NCBI GenBank assembly: GCA_946498975.1
Contig: CAMMQC010000018.1
Span: 1 to 33,000, forward strand
From: an uncultured Mycoplasmatota bacterium
Lineage (GTDB): Bacteria > Bacillota_I > Bacilli_A > RF39 > UBA660
Direction: 5' to 3'
Length of the DNA: 33,000 nucleotides
Below, piece after piece: positions 5,900-16,188 of this stretch. The translations under genes and the position numbers were made by a program. A model generated the notes under the pieces. It saw only the letters and a list, made by a program, of their open reading frames with translations, was not told where the DNA came from and did not search any database. Every line of letters begins with the position of its first letter. Position 1 is the stretch's first letter.

Positions 5900-8800
5900 G
5901 TGAAAAAAAATTACATATTAGGAATTGATGTAGGAATATCATCAGTTGGTTGGGGATTACTTGAATTAAATGAAAAGGACGAACCATTTAAAATATTAGA
6001 TACTGGAGTTAGAATATTTACACCAGGTGAAGTACCTAAAACAGGAGCTAGTAAGGCTTTAGCAAGACGTCAAAAAAGAGGGGCTAGAAGAATTATTCAA
6101 AGAAGGGAATATAGACTTGATAGAGTTAGACTTCTTCTAAGCCAATATGGATTTTTACCTAAAATATCAGACGATATTATTCCTAGTGAAAGAGAAGAAT
6201 TATTAACTTTAGAATTTGACAAATTATTAAATAAATATTACAAAAATAAAAATACAAATCCTTATGAACTAAAAGTAGCAGCTTTAAAAAGAAAACTTTC
6301 TAATGAAGAGTTAGTTATTATATTAAATCATTATGCTAAACATAGAGGTTATAAATCAAATAGAGAAGAAGCTAATGATAGTGAAAGTGGTAAGATTAAA
6401 AATGCTATCAAAGAAAACGAAAAGATAATGAAAGAAAATCACTATGAAACTGTAAGTGAAATGTTTATTAAAGATGGTAAATTTAAAGATAAGATTAGAA
6501 ATACAACAGATGATTATAAAATGTCTGTTACAAGAGAAATGTATCTAGAAGAAATAGAAAAAGTTTTAACATCACAAATAAAGTATGGATTAATAACAGA
6601 AGAATTTAAAGAAAAATATTTAGACATATGGCAAAGTCAAAGACATTATTCTAAAGGCCCAGGTTATTACTTTTATAAAGAGAATGGTATATTAAAGAAA
6701 AAACTATCTCCTTATGGAGATGAGAAAAGTTTAATTGCTAGAATGGTTGGTACTTGTAAATTTGACCATTTACCAAGAGCTCCTAAATGTGCCCCATCAT
6801 CAGAAATTTTTGTATTTTTAGAAAGATTGTTAAACTTAAGATATAAAACTCTAGGAGATTATGAAAGATTAGATTCTGAAGAGATTAAAGAAATATTAGA
6901 ACTTGCTAAATCTAAAGATAAAATTACTTATAAAGATATTGCCAAAGTAATTAATAAATCTAATATAGTTTTCAAAGATAATAATATTACAGATAAAGAT
7001 AGAAAAAAAATAAGAACTTATTTTAAAGAAAATTATAATATAGATAAATTGGATTTTAAAAAATTAACTGAAGAACAGAAAACGACTTATAGGGAAATGC
7101 AAAACAAAATGAAAGTTGATAATATCTTTGGCGAATTAAAAACTTATTCAGTCTTTAGGAAAAACTTTACTAAATGGAACAAAAATGAATGGGAGAAAAT
7201 AAAAGATAACTTTAAACTACTAGATGAAATTGCTATTATTCTTACTGATTGTAAACTTAATGAAGATATTAAAAGTGAAGTAGAAAAATCAGACATAATA
7301 GATAATAGTTACTATGAGATTATTACTAAGCTACCTAATTTAAAAGATCACTTAATGTTATCTTTAGATTTAATATATAAACTTATTCCTTTAATGCTAG
7401 AAGGAAATCGTTATGATGAAGCGATGAGTTTGTTAGGATTAAATCATAGTAACATTAACGATAATACAACTAAATATGATTTATTACCTCCAATAGATAG
7501 TGAAGATGGTATTACTAATCAAAGAGTTTTAAGAAGTCTTGCTCAAACTAGAAAGGTAATTAATGCTATTATTAAAAAATATGGACTTCCTAAAGAAATA
7601 AAGATAGAAACAGCAAGAGAATTGGCTAAGTCAAGAGAAGAACGAAATAGGATAGAAAAAGAACAAAAAGAAAGATTTGAAAATAATTTAAATATAAAAG
7701 AATATTTAGTATCATTATTACCTAATATTTTTCCAAGTGTTGATTATGTATCAAGTACAGATTTATTAAAATATAAGCTATGGCAAGAACAAGGTGAAAT
7801 ATGTCCATATAGCCTTAAAAGAATAAAAATAGAAGAACTTTTTGATAATAACTTAGTACAAATAGATCATATCTTACCTTATTCAAGAACCTTTGATGAT
7901 AGCTATTTTAATAAAACCTTAGTGCTAACTAAATATAATCAAGAAAAACGAGAAAAAACACCATATGAGTGGTTTGGAAATACTTCTAAATGGGGAGAAT
8001 TTAAAAATTATATTAGTTCTTTAAATATAACTGATAGAAAAAAAGATAACTATTTACTTACTCAATTAACAGATGAAATGGCAAGCGAAATGAGAAATCA
8101 GAATCTAAATGATACTAAGTATATTAGTAAATATTTAGTTAATTTTATGAAAGCTCATTTAAATGTTGATAAAATAAGTTCTTATAGTGGTTCTATTACA
8201 GGTAGATTAAGAGCAAGATGGGGACTAAATGGTTTAACTCATAGTTTGGAATCAAGTAATTACTATGTAAAAAGAAATAATTATGAAGAAATTAAAAAGA
8301 ATAGAGAAAATCATTTACATCATGCTATGGATGCCTTAGTTATCGCTTCTATTACAAAAAGCCTAGAACAAAAGATAATTGAATATGAAAAATTATATCG
8401 TTATTTTGTTAATGCAACAAGTAGTACTTTAGAAGAATATATGGAAAATAATGACTTTTATATTACTGATTATGTTGATTTAGAAACAGGAGAAGTTACT
8501 AATAAGAGTATAAAAGATTATATTGAGGAAGGAATAGAAAGTGGCAAGATTAAAAATAGTTTAAAACATAAAGAATTGTATTACTTAGATTTCCCATTAC
8601 CATATAATAATTTTGATAAAGAAGCTAAGTTAAGAGTTTATGAAAGAGATATTGTGGTTTTAAGAACTAAACTAAAAGAACTTGGAACATATAATGAAGA
8701 AGAACTTAATAGAGTTCATCCAATCTATCCTTCTTTTGCAAAACCAAAACTAAGCGGAGCATTACATAAAGAAACAGTTTGTGGATATGATAAAAATAGA

Positions 8801-9505
8801 AATATGTTAACAAATCGTATAAGCATAAATTCAACTAGCTTTAATATAAAGGAACTAGATAGTATTATAGATAAAAAAACTGGTAGTAAAGATGTATATG
8901 ATACATTAGTAAGATGGCTATATGGCTTTGATACCGGAAAAGAAGCATATGATAAAAAAGGATATCCAATTAATGAGAAAAGCGGTAACTTAATTAAGAA
9001 AATCACTATAGAAAGTCCATATGATGGTAAAGGACATTTTATAGGTGATAAATTTGTAGGAAAAGAGGATATCTATCAAATTAGAATTTATAAAAAAGAA
9101 AATGATGATAAGTTATATTTTGTAGGATTTGATTTATTTGATTTAGCACAAATAAAAGTTAAAAAGGACTTTAATCTTGTATTATGGTATGGAAGGGATA
9201 AAAATAAGTATATTTTAAAATATAGTGAGCTTAATAAAAACTATAAATTATATTTAAATATAATGAAAAATCAATTAATAGAGGTTAAAAAATATGACGA
9301 AAGTAAAGGAGTATGTTATGTTATAGGCTTTACTAGTGGAAAATTAAAAATTAAAGGAATGCTTGGTGATGGTAGAGATTTAGTAGGTAATGATAATTTA
9401 ATGCTATCACTTAATACTAAAGATGAATACGAAGTAACGGTTTCAACTATAAAGAATATTAAAAAATTGGAAATTACTGTATTAGGAGAGATTAATGGGT
9501 TATAG
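5900..9505 (+). CDS. cas9: Cas9 endonuclease (type II CRISPR effector)
   Basis: 1201 aa, between compact SaCas9 (1053) and SpyCas9 (1368) in length. All catalytic parts are present: RuvC-I GIDVGISSVGWG with D10; Arg-rich bridge helix about 51-80; recognition lobe about 90-520; RuvC-II IKIETARELAKS with E570; HNH QIDHILPYSRTF with D656/H657, N671 and N680 matching Spy D839, H840, N854 and N863; RuvC-III HLHHAMDALVIAS with H808 and D811; a C-terminal PAM-interacting region from about 900. It should cut DNA matched by crRNA:tracrRNA. The start is GTG at 5900, supported by AAAGGAGA nine bases upstream and by alignment of D10. It overlaps cas1 by 11 bases, showing an operon. No missing catalytic residues were seen. 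The PAM cannot be inferred without protospacers. Confidence 0.98.
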   Translation: MKKNYILGIDVGISSVGWGLLELNEKDEPFKILDTGVRIFTPGEVPKTGASKALARRQKRGARRIIQRREYRLDRVRLLLSQYGFLPKISDDIIPSEREELLTLEFDKLLNKYYKNKNTNPYELKVAALKRKLSNEELVIILNHYAKHRGYKSNREEANDSESGKIKNAIKENEKIMKENHYETVSEMFIKDGKFKDKIRNTTDDYKMSVTREMYLEEIEKVLTSQIKYGLITEEFKEKYLDIWQSQRHYSKGPGYYFYKENGILKKKLSPYGDEKSLIARMVGTCKFDHLPRAPKCAPSSEIFVFLERLLNLRYKTLGDYERLDSEEIKEILELAKSKDKITYKDIAKVINKSNIVFKDNNITDKDRKKIRTYFKENYNIDKLDFKKLTEEQKTTYREMQNKMKVDNIFGELKTYSVFRKNFTKWNKNEWEKIKDNFKLLDEIAIILTDCKLNEDIKSEVEKSDIIDNSYYEIITKLPNLKDHLMLSLDLIYKLIPLMLEGNRYDEAMSLLGLNHSNINDNTTKYDLLPPIDSEDGITNQRVLRSLAQTRKVINAIIKKYGLPKEIKIETARELAKSREERNRIEKEQKERFENNLNIKEYLVSLLPNIFPSVDYVSSTDLLKYKLWQEQGEICPYSLKRIKIEELFDNNLVQIDHILPYSRTFDDSYFNKTLVLTKYNQEKREKTPYEWFGNTSKWGEFKNYISSLNITDRKKDNYLLTQLTDEMASEMRNQNLNDTKYISKYLVNFMKAHLNVDKISSYSGSITGRLRARWGLNGLTHSLESSNYYVKRNNYEEIKKNRENHLHHAMDALVIASITKSLEQKIIEYEKLYRYFVNATSSTLEEYMENNDFYITDYVDLETGEVTNKSIKDYIEEGIESGKIKNSLKHKELYYLDFPLPYNNFDKEAKLRVYERDIVVLRTKLKELGTYNEEELNRVHPIYPSFAKPKLSGALHKETVCGYDKNRNMLTNRISINSTSFNIKELDSIIDKKTGSKDVYDTLVRWLYGFDTGKEAYDKKGYPINEKSGNLIKKITIESPYDGKGHFIGDKFVGKEDIYQIRIYKKENDDKLYFVGFDLFDLAQIKVKKDFNLVLWYGRDKNKYILKYSELNKNYKLYLNIMKNQLIEVKKYDESKGVCYVIGFTSGKLKIKGMLGDGRDLVGNDNLMLSLNTKDEYEVTVSTIKNIKKLEITVLGEINGL

Positions 9506-10382
9506 GCAAGTTGTTATTAAAAAGTGTGAAAAGTTAAATTTAGAAGATAGACAATTAATAATAAATAAAGAAGATAATAGTTATAAAGTTCCTCTTGAAG
9601 ATATAAACTTTGTTTTAATAGAAGATAATAAAACGGTTATTACCTCTAAAGTTTTAGCAGCTTTTGGAGCAAAGGGGATATGTTTAATAGTTTGTGATGA
9701 TAAATTTGAACCTATTAGTATTATGTACCCATATAATTATCATTTTAAGCAATTAGAAAATATAGAAAAACAGTTATCTTTAGATGATGAATCTAAAAAA
9801 ATAATATGGAAAGAAATAGTAAAAGCTAAAATTGAAAATGAAATAGCAGTACTGTGTCAAACAAGTAAAGAAGAAAGAGTAATTGACAAATTATCACAGT
9901 ATGTTAAGGAAATAAAATTAGGAGATGAAACTAATAGGGAAGGACTAGCTGCTAAAATGTATTTTAAGAGTTTATTTGGTAGCGAGTTTATAAGATTTTA
10001 TGATGATACTATCAATGCCGCATTAAATTATGCTTATCAAATTGTAAAGAGTTCTATCATTAGAACTCTTAGTATTTATGGTCTTAACTCTTATTTAGGT
10101 GTTAATCATAAATCTAAAGTTAATAATTTTAATTTAGTTTATGATTTAATAGAGCCATATAGAGCGATAGTAGATTTATATGTATACAAAATAAAAGATA
10201 ATTTGACATTACCTCTTTCATTTGAAATAAGAAAAGAATTAATAAATATCTTAAATATACCTGTTATTAGTAATAATATGAAATGTACTTTGGAATATAG
10301 TATAGAAGTACTAATAAAAAGTTATATTAAAACTATTAGTACCGGAGAAATAAATTTAATATTTCCAAGAATTATAGAATAG
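9495..10382 (+). CDS. cas1: Cas1 integrase
   Basis: 295 aa, type II-sized Cas1. The metal-binding triad is visible: E149 in NREGLAAKMYFKSLFG, H205 in YLGVNHKSK, and E220 in LVYDLIEPYRAIVD. The N-terminal beta domain (LEDINFVLIEDNKTVITSKVLAAFGAKGICLIVCD) is typical. With Cas2 it forms the complex that inserts prespacers at the leader end of the array. The ATG lies inside the end of cas9 (11-base overlap), so expression is translationally coupled. The intact triad fits the long array, which shows past adaptation. Confidence 0.97.
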   Translation: MGYRQVVIKKCEKLNLEDRQLIINKEDNSYKVPLEDINFVLIEDNKTVITSKVLAAFGAKGICLIVCDDKFEPISIMYPYNYHFKQLENIEKQLSLDDESKKIIWKEIVKAKIENEIAVLCQTSKEERVIDKLSQYVKEIKLGDETNREGLAAKMYFKSLFGSEFIRFYDDTINAALNYAYQIVKSSIIRTLSIYGLNSYLGVNHKSKVNNFNLVYDLIEPYRAIVDLYVYKIKDNLTLPLSFEIRKELINILNIPVISNNMKCTLEYSIEVLIKSYIKTISTGEINLIFPRIIE

Positions 10383-10393
10383 AAGGAATTGAT

Positions 10394-10717
10394 GTGATAA
10401 ATAGATTTATGAGATTAATAGTAATGTTTGATTTACCTGTTGTCACAGCAGAAGAAAGACAAATATATAGTAAATTTAGAAAATTTTTATTAAAAGATGG
10501 ATATATTATGATGCAGTTTTCAATATATTCAAGAATTTGTAAGAATGGCGATGATGTCTCTAAACATATTAATAGAATTAGACAAAATCTACCAGATAGG
10601 GGAAATATTAGATTGTTACAAGTTACAGAAAAACAATATCAAGATATGATTTTATTATGCGGTAGAAAAGTAGCAGAAGAAGAGATATCTATTCAAAATT
10701 TAATTGTATTTGAATAA
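10394..10717 (+). CDS. cas2: Cas2 adaptation protein
   Basis: 107 aa. The core begins RLIVMFDLPVVTAEERQIYSKFRKFLLKDGYIMMQFSIYSR, the ferredoxin-like fold of Cas2 with the conserved Asp in FDLP. I chose GTG at 10394 because AAGGA lies 6-7 bases upstream; the ATG at 10409 (MRLIVMF) is the alternative. The overlapping ATG at 10392 is closed at once by TGA. It follows cas1 after 11 bases. It is the last cas gene on this strand: no csn2 follows co-directionally, and a terminator overlaps the stop codon. Confidence 0.95.
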   Translation: MINRFMRLIVMFDLPVVTAEERQIYSKFRKFLLKDGYIMMQFSIYSRICKNGDDVSKHINRIRQNLPDRGNIRLLQVTEKQYQDMILLCGRKVAEEEISIQNLIVFE

Positions 10718-10754: not shown

Positions 10755-10848
10755 CAAAAAGGTCGATTAAGGCTCGACCAAACCTTAAGGCATTAGTGCC
10801 TTATTACAGTAACCTGTAAAAATTTAAGTAATATACATCTTTCGATGT
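10755..10848 (-). ncRNA. tracrRNA
   Basis: On the minus strand, 10830-10803 is a 28-nt anti-repeat. It matches the reverse complement of the 5' part of the CRISPR repeat at 22 positions (blocks TACT, AAATTT, ACAGG, TACT, TAA). Most differences are changes that still allow G-U pairing with the repeat. Then follow a nexus-like hairpin AAGGC-loop-GCCTT (10802-10787) and a terminator hairpin GGTCGA/TCGACC (10779-10761) with TTTTT at 10760-10756. The predicted 5' end adds a hairpin TACATC-GAAA-GATGTA (10849-10834). The predicted length is about 94 nt. It pairs with pre-crRNA for RNase III processing and Cas9 loading. Location between convergent cas2 and the ATPase gene, antisense to cas9, is unusual but clear. 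Confidence 0.92.
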
Positions 10849-10850
10849 AA

Positions 10851-11918
10851 TTAAATAATATCAGTAATTTCATAATCTGTCAATAACCTTTCACAAACTA
10901 ATTTTAATAATTTGAGTTCAAGTATATCTTTATAAAGTATATAATTATTTAATAAATTATTAGTTAAAGAGGTAAGATAAATTTTATTACTAACTAAAAT
11001 AATACCAATGTTATTTTTTTGAAAGTTAAAGATAGTATTTTTTATTCTATTTAAATCATTACTATTTATTAAATTATAATTATTGTGTTTAAATTCTAAA
11101 TAATTAGTATTATTACCAAAATTTTGATATTGTTCAAACATAATATATTCTTTTAATATATCGTTAATATCATTGAAATTTATTAATTTATAATCTTTAG
11201 TTTTATAAATACTAAAAATATTAAGATCTAAATAGTTATATATAGTAGAGTTATTTGTGCTAATAATAAAATAACAATTATTTTTATTAAGAATTTTAAT
11301 TAAATTTAAAACTTCAACTATTCCTTCATTATCGAGATATAAATCAAAATCATCAATAATAACAAAAGTTTTCTTATCTTTAGTGGTATTAAATAATAGT
11401 AATTGATATATTAACTTACGTTTGTCACTTTTTGAAATGTTTTTAGTATCAGTTAAATCATTCACATATATAGTTGTAAATTTATCAATAATTTTATCGA
11501 TATCGTCTATATTTATATCAAATTTTAATTTGTTTTTCAAACTATTATTTATATTACTATCTAAATATTTGTTAACTGCATTATCAATATTATCTAAACT
11601 ATTATTAATCTCAGATAATATTTTTTCCTTATCGATATTTTTATATATTGCATCATATAAAGATGTTTTAAAAATATTATTCTTAGTAAATTTAAATTCA
11701 TTATTAAAATCAGTTTCTTCGTCAAAATAAATAACATTATATCTATTCTTTTCACATTCAAGAGAATTTAAAGAAAAATTTTTATAATTTCCAGCTAAAC
11801 CTTCTTTTAATGCTTTTAGTAAAGAAGTCTTTCCAGACTTATTAGAACCAAATATAATTAAATTATTATTAAAAGATAACGAAAAATCATTCTTTTTATA
11901 TATAAAATTTATTTGCAT
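10851..11918 (-). CDS. Csn2-position P-loop ATPase (ABC/SMC-like) with intact Walker motifs
   Basis: 355 aa, starting MQINFIYKKNDFSLSF. Motifs: Walker A GSNKSGKTS (residues 24-32), a signature-like helix ISKSDKRKLIYQLLLF (161-176), Walker B TFVIIDDFDLYLD (184-196) and a switch strand YFIISTNNS (216-224). This is the order of RecF/SMC/ABC ATPases, with a short helical insert between Walker A and the signature. The C-terminal 120 aa show no motif I recognise. Position beside cas2 and the array, and size (long Csn2 proteins are about 350 aa), suggest a Csn2 equivalent, the ring protein that binds DNA ends during type II-A adaptation. Two oddities: it is inverted relative to cas9-cas1-cas2, and its ATPase motifs look intact, whereas described Csn2 proteins have degenerate ones. 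It is extremely Asn- and Lys-rich. GTGGTGAT precedes the ATG. An unrelated OLD-like defence ATPase is the main alternative. Confidence 0.7.
   Translation of the reverse strand: MQINFIYKKNDFSLSFNNNLIIFGSNKSGKTSLLKALKEGLAGNYKNFSLNSLECEKNRYNVIYFDEETDFNNEFKFTKNNIFKTSLYDAIYKNIDKEKILSEINNSLDNIDNAVNKYLDSNINNSLKNKLKFDINIDDIDKIIDKFTTIYVNDLTDTKNISKSDKRKLIYQLLLFNTTKDKKTFVIIDDFDLYLDNEGIVEVLNLIKILNKNNCYFIISTNNSTIYNYLDLNIFSIYKTKDYKLINFNDINDILKEYIMFEQYQNFGNNTNYLEFKHNNYNLINSNDLNRIKNTIFNFQKNNIGIILVSNKIYLTSLTNNLLNNYILYKDILELKLLKLVCERLLTDYEITDII
10855..10883 (-). promoter_or_regulatory. tracrRNA promoter inside the 3' end of the ATPase gene
   Basis: On the minus strand: -35 TTGACA (10883-10878), 17-bp spacer, -10 TATTAT (10860-10855). 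It is near-consensus and overlaps the last codons of the ATPase gene (stop 10853-10851). The predicted start is near 10848, at the tracrRNA 5' hairpin. Confidence 0.8.
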
Positions 11919-11990
11919 ATTTTATCACCACTTATATAAAGTATAACAAAATTTGTAAAATATAGCGAATTATTATATAATTATTTTGAG
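11919..11990 (+). promoter_or_regulatory. CRISPR leader with array promoter
   Basis: Only 72 bp separate the divergent ATPase gene from the first repeat. On the plus strand: -35 TTGTAA (11953-11958), 17-bp spacer, -10 TATAAT (11976-11981), predicting a start near 11988, three bases before repeat 1. The leader ends in TTTTGAG directly before the first repeat, close to the ATTTGAG leader-anchoring sequence known from streptococcal type II-A arrays. A minus-strand promoter for the ATPase must share this DNA; TATACT read leftwards near 11945 is a candidate. Confidence 0.7.
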
Positions 11991-14900
11991 GTTATAGTAC
12001 CCTGTGAAATTTGAGTAGTATTTATGCTCAGATAGTATTTTATATACAATAACTTGGTTATAGTACCCTGTGAAATTTGAGTAGTATTTATGCGTATTCA
12101 ATTTTATTTATTACATCTTTTAGTTATAGTACCCTGTGAAATTTGAGTAGTATTTATGTACTTAACGGGTTTAAATATTCCAAAGAAAGTTATAGTACCC
12201 TGTGAAATTTGAGTAGTATTTATGTTTCAAGCTCAACTTATAGAAAGGAGCTAGGTTATAGTACCCTGTGAAATTTGAGTAGTATTTATGTAATAATGAA
12301 ATATATTTAACGATACCGAAGTTATAGTACCCTGTGAAATTTGAGTAGTATTTATGTGGAAGCCCAGAGAGCCAGTATGAACTTAAGTTATAGTACCCTG
12401 TGAAATTTGAGTAGTATTTATGCAGGTGTTAACATTGTAAATATTGCATCTTGTTATAGTACCCTGTGAAATTTGAGTAGTATTTATGTAATTGCTTAAA
12501 AGAAAAAAGGTTAGAAAAGTTATAGTACCCTGTGAAATTTGAGTAGTATTTATGAAAGGAATGTATGCTGTGTAGTACATTGAAGTTATAGTACCCTGTG
12601 AAATTTGAGTAGTATTTATGAAGGTAAAATGATTATCGGACGTGATGAAGGTTATAGTACCCTGTGAAATTTGAGTAGTATTTATGATGTTCTTCCAAAT
12701 TCTTGTTCTGCAAATTGTTATAGTACCCTGTGAAATTTGAGTAGTATTTATGTTAAAAAATATAGACCATTTATTGTAAAATGTTATAGTACCCTGTGAA
12801 ATTTGAGTAGTATTTATGTATAATCGTTATCTTGTAAAAATGCACATAGTTATAGTACCCTGTGAAATTTGAGTAGTATTTATGTTTATTCTTTATGTCA
12901 TATAAAACATCACCGTTATAGTACCCTGTGAAATTTGAGTAGTATTTATGTTACGCATTTAATATGAATAAAGCTAACCCGTTATAGTACCCTGTGAAAT
13001 TTGAGTAGTATTTATGACAACAAATAGGACTTACACAAGCTAAACTGTTATAGTACCCTGTGAAATTTGAGTAGTATTTATGAACATTTCTGTTTGCTTC
13101 GTATTTTCTTTTGTTATAGTACCCTGTGAAATTTGAGTAGTATTTATGAAATCATCAGTTATTTCGGTAGTACCTGTAGTTATAGTACCCTGTGAAATTT
13201 GAGTAGTATTTATGTTATTTTTATAGCACCAGTTTATAAACTCTGTTATAGTACCCTGTGAAATTTGAGTAGTATTTATGACATTACCTACCCATTCCTT
13301 TATTTTTTTCGTTATAGTACCCTGTGAAATTTGAGTAGTATTTATGACGGTTGCAAGCCCTTAAAGATGAAGAGTTGTTATAGTACCCTGTGAAATTTGA
13401 GTAGTATTTATGATGTTACAGAAGAAGTTGAAGAAACAACAGGTTATAGTACCCTGTGAAATTTGAGTAGTATTTATGAAAGGGTTAGTAGGTTAGAAGA
13501 AATAACAGGTTATAGTACCCTGTGAAATTTGAGTAGTATTTATGTGAGAACAATTGATCTTAATGTTGAAGCACGTTATAGTACCCTGTGAAATTTGAGT
13601 AGTATTTATGCTTTTGTTCCTAAACTCATCATAAACATTTGTTATAGTACCCTGTGAAATTTGAGTAGTATTTATGATGTCTTAAAAGATATGGAAAAGG
13701 ATAGTCGTTATAGTACCCTGTGAAATTTGAGTAGTATTTATGAAATACTATCATCTTTATCATTTAATGTTTGTTATAGTACCCTGTGAAATTTGAGTAG
13801 TATTTATGATTACAAAGGAATAATCGTATATATGCAGGTGTTATAGTACCCTGTGAAATTTGAGTAGTATTTATGAAACAACTGTGTCACTATATGTTAA
13901 ATTATGTTATAGTACCCTGTGAAATTTGAGTAGTATTTATGTTGATTTAAGAAGTTATATATTAAATGTAGGTTATAGTACCCTGTGAAATTTGAGTAGT
14001 ATTTATGTCTGAATATTAGTTAATATTAACATATATTGTTATAGTACCCTGTGAAATTTGAGTAGTATTTATGACGATATAAGACGAGGTAATCCATACG
14101 ACTGTTATAGTACCCTGTGAAATTTGAGTAGTATTTATGAAGAGAAGAAGATATTATTTAAGTATGAGAAGTTATAGTACCCTGTGAAATTTGAGTAGTA
14201 TTTATGAAGAAAGATATGAAGCTTATAAAACTGCTAAGTTATAGTACCCTGTGAAATTTGAGTAGTATTTATGTCAAAATTATATGTTACGTTATTATAA
14301 CTTGTTATAGTACCCTGTGAAATTTGAGTAGTATTTATGTATTTATCGTCTTGTTATAGAGATTTCTAGGTTATAGTACCCTGTGAAATTTGAGTAGTAT
14401 TTATGACGATATAAGACGAGGTAATCCATACGACTGTTATAGTACCCTGTGAAATTTGAGTAGTATTTATGCTATTAGTATATATTGTGGTACTCTGTTT
14501 CGTTATAGTACCCTGTGAAATTTGAGTAGTATTTATGACGCAAGTTTACAGACATCTGTTCACAAAGGTTATAGTACCCTGTGAAATTTGAGTAGTATTT
14601 ATGACTATACAGCTAGTTACATACAGGGTAATAGTTATAGTACCCTGTGAAATTTGAGTAGTATTTATGTAGAAGTAGTATGCCTGTAACATATCAAGAG
14701 TTATAGTACCCTGTGAAATTTGAGTAGTATTTATGATTTTAAGTACATCATGTTTTGTAGGCTATGTTATAGTACCCTGTGAAATTTGAGTAGTATTTAT
14801 GGGTATAAGTGGTTGTTGGGTAGTACTTAACGTTATAGTACCCTGTGAAATTTGAGTAGTATTTATGTATATATTTAAGAAGATACAAAACAGAACTGTT

Positions 14901-16188
14901 ATAGTACCCTGTGAAATTTGAGTAGTATTTATGTGAGAACAATTGACTTAAACGTTGAAGCACGTTATAGTACCCTGTGAAATTTGAGTAGTATTTATGT
15001 TTTCTTATTTCCTTAGATATGATACATACGTTATAGTACCCTGTGAAATTTGAGTAGTATTTATGATTGTTAAACCTTGCTCTGTATCTTTTACTGGTTA
15101 TAGTACCCTGTGAAATTTGAGTAGTATTTATGTGCTTATAATGATGGACTGCACAGTAATATGTTATAGTACCCTGTGAAATTTGAGTAGTATTTATGCT
15201 GCCATTTCAAATGAAGGTAAAGCAACCAGTTATAGTACCCTGTGAAATTTGAGTAGTATTTATGCCATATGTTAGCAACCTCATAAGGGTTCATGTTATA
15301 GTACCCTGTGAAATTTGAGTAGTATTTATGTAGTTGTATCTGCTTCATCGCCAAAGTCGTGTTATAGTACCCTGTGAAATTTGAGTAGTATTTATGCCAC
15401 ACCAGTAGCTCCACTCTTGTATTGTAGTTATAGTACCCTGTGAAATTTGAGTAGTATTTATGTCATCAATTAACTTCTTTAATTGTTTGTCTGTTATAGT
15501 ACCCTGTGAAATTTGAGTAGTATTTATGGTTAATACTGATAGTTTATCTGCTTTGTTTGTTATAGTACCCTGTGAAATTTGAGTAGTATTTATGTAGTAG
15601 ATGTTCTTACTAATTGATTTGGAAGTTATAGTACCCTGTGAAATTTGAGTAGTATTTATGGACGACTACAAGCTCTTAAAGATGAAGAATGTTATAGTAC
15701 CCTGTGAAATTTGAGTAGTATTTATGAGAATCTCAAACTTTAAAGACTTGTCCGTGGTTATAGTACCCTGTGAAATTTGAGTAGTATTTATGTTTCAATT
15801 AAGCTCTCTAACATTTCGCAAAGTTATAGTACCCTGTGAAATTTGAGTAGTATTTATGCTATACTACTATCAAGAGATAATACTATATGTTATAGTACCC
15901 TGTGAAATTTGAGTAGTATTTATGCTTTGTTTATGAAAAATGGCATAAAACAACGTTATAGTACCCTGTGAAATTTGAGTAGTATTTATGACTGGTTTCT
16001 TCTTTTCTTCTTTCAGTTCAGTTATAGTACCCTGTGAAATTTGAGTAGTATTTATGGCTATAGTGATTGTATGTTAATGCAGGTGGGTTATAGTACCCTG
16101 TGAAATTTGAGTAGTATTTATTTTTCTTTTTCATCATTTGTAGCCACTGTCTGTTACAGTACCCTGTGAAATTTGAATGGTATAATAT
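11991..16188 (+). CRISPR. Type II CRISPR array: 64 repeats, 63 spacers
   Basis: The repeat is 36 nt, starting GTTATAGTACCCTGTG and ending GAGTAGTATTTATG, with period 66. I followed every repeat start: 59 spacers are 30 nt and four are 31 nt (13809-13839, 14140-14170, 14207-14237, 15066-15096). Repeat 63 (16087) has a changed last base and repeat 64 (16153-16188) is degenerate (GTTACAG, then GAATGGTATAATAT), marking the distal end. The leader is therefore on the left, and transcription is rightward, as the GTTATAG 5' end and the tracrRNA pairing also require. Spacers 32 and 37 are identical. Spacers 24/45 and 21/56 are synonymous variants of the same coding sequences. Short open frames across the array are repeat artefacts. 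Confidence 0.99.

Follow-up and report, generated by a model that had tools for sequence, protein, structure and literature searches.

The window, by which we mean the whole stretch of 33,000 nucleotides analysed here, carries cas9, cas1 and cas2 on one strand, followed by a gene of the opposite strand that occupies the gap between the end of cas2 (10717) and a CRISPR array (Table 1). This minus-strand open reading frame starts with ATG and encodes 355 residues; its coordinates and strand are exactly those of the original prediction, which described a P-loop gene of this length opposite cas9-cas1-cas2, between cas2 and the array. Homologues of 75-82% identity are found at the same position in related genomes, and the dN/dS ratio is about 0.15 in comparisons with the 82% and 75% identical homologues (calculated with our own Nei-Gojobori script, with synonymous sites fairly saturated in the 75% comparison). 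The frame is therefore a real gene, which we call csn2 for the reasons given below, and it is shown to be under purifying selection. Upstream of the cas locus, a plus-strand open reading frame (977-2248) resembles, by eye, a DDE-type transposase.

Table 1 Features of the csn2 locus, with the positions in the window and the evidence for each
Feature	Position	Strand	Evidence
cas9, 1201 aa	5900..9505	+	TIGR01865, 9e-181
cas1, type II	9495..10382	+	TIGR03639, 9e-82
cas2	10394..10717	+	TIGR01573, 7e-27
Predicted tracrRNA	10755..10848	-	Anti-repeat, fold z, terminator, conservation
csn2-like gene, long Csn2 with P-loop ATPase fold	10851..11918	-	ORF, PADLOC, AlphaFold model, fold match
Predicted tracrRNA promoter, TTGACA-17-TATTAT with TG, 11/12	10855..10883	-	Consensus scan
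Walker B and D-loop, VIIDDFDLYLD, residues 186-196, RecF-like DD	11331..11363	-	Alignment, RecF of the same genome
Signature-like motif, ISKSDKRKL, residues 161-169	11412..11438	-	Alignment
Walker A, GSNKSGKTS, residues 24-32	11823..11849	-	Sequence, alignment
Leader, 72 bp, csn2 start to first repeat	11919..11990		Alignment of 11 loci
Predicted csn2 extended -10, TGTTATACT	11940..11948	-	Comparison with closest homologues
Predicted pre-crRNA promoter, TTGTAA-17-TATAAT	11953..11981	+	Consensus scan, alignment
CRISPR array, 64 repeats of 36 nt, leader at csn2 end	11991..16188	+	Repeat analysis

The array has a spacing of 66-67 bp, and its last repeat (16153), which is counted among the 64, is degenerate, placing the leader at the csn2 end. 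In a genome of the same genus (G003) the region comprising csn2, tracrRNA and leader is identical to that of the window, and elsewhere in the cas locus, between 5300 and 11990, there are five differences. The two arrays have no spacer in common (28 spacers in G003 and 62 compared in the window; window 11991-16122 against L045 6863-8745). The array has thus been replaced or extended with csn2 unchanged, which fits a working adaptation module. Two pairs of window spacers, 24 with 45 and 32 with 37, are duplicated or nearly so, a pattern suggestive of duplication within the array or of targets sampled more than once. A minus-strand open reading frame of 92 residues inside the array (15136-15414) comes only from reading the CRISPR repeat in reverse (HKYYSNFTGYYN repeats) and constitutes an annotation trap.

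The last seven bases of the leader, TTTTGAG (11984-11990), differ at one position from the type II-A element ATTTGAG, which stands directly before the repeat in several relatives. This element is reported to be essential for adaptation in Streptococcus thermophilus CRISPR1 and is present in 87 of 167 II-A loci (PMC5382924). Consensus promoters are about equally frequent in this AT-rich DNA and in shuffled sequences (22 versus 19.4), and we therefore name only the strongest or the conserved ones. For csn2, a predicted extended -10 lies 18-21 nt upstream of the ATG in the window (TGTTATACT) and, as TGnTATAAT, in its three closest homologues, and a conserved Shine-Dalgarno sequence (GGTGAT in most) lies 3-6 nt before the ATG. 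Summed over ten related loci, which are not independent of each other, the -10 score is 68, versus 58.5 (sd 2.2) in a Markov control. Independent expression of csn2 is plausible, given the conserved Shine-Dalgarno sequence and the extended -10 predicted in the closest relatives. The predicted csn2 and pre-crRNA starts lie back to back within the 72-bp leader, a few bases apart, and csn2 probably has its own promoter there, facing away from the predicted promoter of the pre-crRNA. A csn2 -35 would overlap the latter, so that the two start points are probably mutually exclusive. With this back-to-back layout, there may be competition between transcription of csn2 and that of the pre-crRNA, and between either of them and the binding of integrase to the end of the leader.

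On the other side of csn2, between this gene and cas2 and on the strand of csn2, lies a predicted tracrRNA that was absent from the original prediction. Its anti-repeat (10804-10834, minus strand) is identical to the repeat at 25 of 31 positions, and is followed by a stem-loop and then by an intrinsic terminator (10779-10761), which is the only terminator-like site in the region. The element thus combines an anti-repeat, downstream hairpins and a terminator, as a tracrRNA should, and its fold z-score is -4.3; a search of Rfam returned no tracrRNA match. Its predicted promoter overlaps the csn2 stop codon. The same order of csn2 and tracrRNA is found in those other inverted loci of the family in which the gap between csn2 and cas2 is 140-220 bp. 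There is a second clade with inverted csn2, in which the 3' ends of csn2 and cas2 overlap or lie very close together; here the anti-repeat lies upstream of cas9 in the three loci where it could be searched for (G151, G166 and G466). The tracrRNA being beside csn2 in one inverted clade and upstream of cas9 in these three loci of the other, the inversion occurs with or without an adjoining tracrRNA.

Two identities had been proposed for the protein, an ancestral-like ATPase form of Csn2 and a separate SMC/OLD ATPase, and the comparisons with profiles and structures favour the former. The PADLOC Csn2 model PDLC01597 matches the window protein over residues 8-335 (2e-53), far ahead of the next-best PADLOC model and best defence ATPase, mad8 (6e-12), and is matched by 27 of the 28 homologues. 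For the profile built from these 28 homologues, the best PDB entry is 3zth, the long Csn2 STU0660 (7e-9, residues 10-283); ABC transporter ATPases come close behind, but over short stretches. The AlphaFold2 model (mean pLDDT 86, pTM 0.78) has an ATPase core followed by a mostly helical C-terminus, and its top PDB match in Foldseek is again 3zth (8.6e-10, with a TM-score of only 0.55). In fourth place is 6qxf, the Csn2 of the Cas1-Cas2-Csn2-DNA complex (2.5e-7), and OLD, GajA and ABC ATPases are also among the fold matches. A Pfam scan gave no match of the window protein to the Csn2 models PF09711 and PF16813, and NCBIfam did not name it Csn2; both assign it to generic P-loop ATPases only. Since profile-profile comparisons with short Csn2 (hhalign probability 2.8%) and with one St-type sequence were not significant, the assignment rests on PADLOC, the profile hit to 3zth, the fold and synteny, which together show that the protein belongs to the Csn2 superfamily. 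Like other Csn2 proteins, it is encoded with cas9-cas1-cas2, with the array adjacent, and its strong homologues, where the contigs reach far enough, lie with these cas genes, an array or both. The gene is inverted and so is not the fourth gene of the cas operon on the same strand, but that position is a habit of arrangement and not a defining property of the Csn2 protein.

By fold, the closest protein of solved structure is STU0660 of Streptococcus thermophilus, which also has about 350 residues, occupies the slot between cas2 and the array, and belongs, as the window system would, to a II-A class with a shorter Cas9 and a longer Csn2 (PMC4607530). In STU0660, however, Walker A reads GQNNELKYY and Walker B is degraded, whereas the window motifs are intact, and the window csn2 is inverted and has no PF16813 match. 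The STU0660 class (PF16813, Cas_St_Csn2) is the Csn2 type II of Chylinski 2014 as that term is used in PMC10310304, and five Csn2 subfamilies were defined by Chylinski et al. 2014, as cited in PMC5382924. The short Csn2 proteins (PF09711; 3qhq, 3toc and 6qxf) share the locus position and, by fold, the core, but have about 220 residues and no nucleotide motifs. PDLC01597, annotated as CAS-II-A and acquisition associated, covers almost the whole length of the window protein. Its highest-scoring members are encoded on the same strand as cas2, overlap it and have IIDQ at Walker B, in contrast to the inverted gene and IIDD of the window. As the subfamily is already modelled in PADLOC, the window protein is not a new kind. 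The best-scoring genome for PDLC01597 is G465, with in-frame TGA codons as in Mycoplasma and Spiroplasma. TGA is probably read as a residue in G548 (L103), G485 (L102) and G465 (L051), in which the csn2 homologue is on the same strand and overlaps cas2; that of G548 is interrupted by stop codons.

All three motifs described in the original prediction, namely Walker A, the signature-like motif and Walker B, are present, and Walker A, Walker B and the D-loop are intact. Six of the eight invariant or nearly invariant columns of our first, 12-member alignment fall in these motifs (G24, G29, K30, S162, I188 and D189), which places their conservation above chance. In the signature region Ser162 is nearly invariant and the LSGGQ glycines are absent. 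The position of the catalytic base, after the Walker B aspartate, is occupied by Asp and not by the Glu typical of ABC and SMC proteins, a detail that the original prediction did not mention. RecF of the same genome (VLLLDDIFSELD) has Asp at this position as well, and RecF is an ATPase with slow hydrolysis; a DD-type site is therefore known in a slowly hydrolysing ATPase. The signature of this RecF is ASQGQQK, versus ISKSDKRKL in the csn2 product. The heads of RecF, Rad50 and SMC proteins share Walker A, Walker B and the D-loop with the window protein, which matches PF02463 weakly, but the latter lacks the LSGGQ glycines and a coiled coil and is linked to cas genes. Judged from its motifs, this looks like a working nucleotide site of the ABC/RecF type, and the csn2 product may hydrolyse ATP.

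At E <= 1e-10, 14 of the 386 genomes from the window's family contain a homologue, as do 18 of the 392 genomes from its phylum. Wherever the contigs extend far enough, the strong homologues adjoin cas9-cas1-cas2, the array or both, and those records that carry names are metagenome-assembled genomes (MAGs) of uncultured Bacilli or Tenericutes. No relative was found in the viral contigs or plasmids searched. When whole genomes were searched with the Csn2 model, 113 of 395 had a hit; most hits weaker than about 1e-7 were judged to be generic ABC/SMC proteins and dropped. L060 and L061, which have no cas genes and were pulled in by the iterated profile, were excluded as drift, as were weak second hits in L047 and L094.

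Both Walker motifs are kept in 12 of the 28 family members. On the tree, the GK[ST] core of Walker A requires at least five changes, and the D[DE] of Walker B requires three to five. One clade within the window's own family has GQNSIFKTN and IINN; these close relatives are about 37% identical to the window protein, with unchanged gene order. Walker A Lys is retained even in most degraded sites. Although the trees are unrooted, repeated loss is the likelier direction, since the ABC/SMC relatives outside the family have the intact motif. With only 4-5 independent pairs, it could not be shown statistically that the two Walker motifs are lost together. The earlier statement that described Csn2 proteins have degenerate motifs holds for STU0660, which is degraded, and for short Csn2, which has no motifs; as the intact and the degenerate state both occur inside the family, degenerate motifs cannot define the whole Csn2 superfamily. 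The loss of the site in several cas-linked homologues, including inverted ones of the same family, indicates that hydrolysis is not essential to the role of the family. Two related proteins have a catalytic Glu: a homologue in L055 (G219, 8602-9573) with ILIDE, which is placed beyond the array and not between cas2 and the array, and a protein of G107 (L057) with IIDE.

The inversion seen in the window is not peculiar to it. Counting the window, 17 of the loci compared have csn2 inverted and 10 have it on the strand of the cas genes, and the inverted arrangement recurs in two clades that span four bacterial families. It is found in the window's family and in the families coded f7, f20 and f21, with the same-strand arrangement in f2, f4, f19 and f29. 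The Csn2 tree and the Cas1+Cas9 tree each need only two changes of orientation, their deep branches being weak. There are inverted members with degenerate motifs as well as same-strand members with intact motifs, and the intact site and the inverted orientation are thus independent of each other.

Canonical Csn2 is needed for spacer acquisition, with no biochemical activity found (PMC6620040). Its tetramers encircle DNA beside Cas1-Cas2 in the spacer-capture complex, and Csn2 must slide off before integration, handing over the prespacer (PMC6620040; PMC8034620); the means by which the prespacer is released is still an open question (PMC8034620). We consider it fairly probable that the window encodes a type II-A system combining a shorter Cas9 with a long Csn2, and that this Csn2 acts in spacer capture as a clamp on DNA ends gated by ATP in the style of RecF and Rad50. 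By analogy with these proteins and with canonical Csn2, the long Csn2 would bind DNA ends and retain the prespacer for Cas1-Cas2 (and Cas9). ATP binding would dimerise the heads and close the ring on the DNA ends, and slow hydrolysis would open the clamp for release and hand-off to Cas1-Cas2. Lineages that lost the nucleotide site would now clamp DNA independently of nucleotide, like the Csn2 proteins of solved structure. More tentatively, and with rather less confidence than in the mechanism, we suggest that the ATP-gated clamp could be the ancestral form of Csn2, the site having been lost repeatedly on the way to the nucleotide-independent clamps of the model systems. The absence of the LSGGQ glycines, the Asp at the catalytic-base position and the loss of the site in cas-linked homologues speak against ATP gating.

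Some of the same observations, namely the missing signature glycines, the GQNSIFKTN and IINN of members with the same family and arrangement, the corresponding GQNNELKYY of STU0660 and the Walker A Lys that persists in most degraded sites, would also be explained if the site were structural only, binding ATP or nothing, with no hydrolysis cycle, and were being lost here as in its sisters. We regard this as unlikely, though a serious competitor, because the full motif set is constant in the window and its 75-82% identical relatives at the low dN/dS given above, and intact motifs are present in many separate lineages. It is very improbable that the csn2 product is instead a regulator of array or tracrRNA dosage, acting mainly through its position and not through an activity in adaptation: the predicted back-to-back starts in the leader and the tracrRNA directly downstream of csn2 in the window's family would suit such a role, but in the other inverted clade the tracrRNA is upstream of cas9 in the loci where it could be searched for, with csn2 overlapping or nearly touching the end of cas2, and the Pfam scan recognised no DNA-binding domain in the protein. 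The remaining alternative, a separate defence ATPase of OLD, SMC or Gabija type that acts alone and stands at the Csn2 position by chance, draws on weak matches to mad8, GajA, PtuA and SMC_N and on an ATPase core shared by fold with OLD and GajA, but hardly survives the far stronger profile match to Csn2, the long Csn2 as best fold match, the linkage to cas2 and the array, and a Pfam scan that found no TOPRIM or other nuclease after the ATPase domain.

The ATP-gated clamp is our preferred reading of the long Csn2. In the literature searched, within which Chylinski et al. 2014 (who may comment on Csn2 nucleotide motifs) was not covered, we came across no further description of a Csn2 ATPase or an inverted csn2, and the intact site, its repeated loss in close relatives and the inverted combination of tracrRNA, csn2 and leader appear to be undescribed there. 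Inverted loci such as this one would escape a survey pipeline that takes the sequence downstream of csn2 as leader and array (PMC5382924). With a Csn2 whose nucleotide site is intact, one can examine whether the hand-off of the prespacer was formerly timed by ATP, and the relatives with naturally broken sites, which have the same gene order, are ready comparisons.
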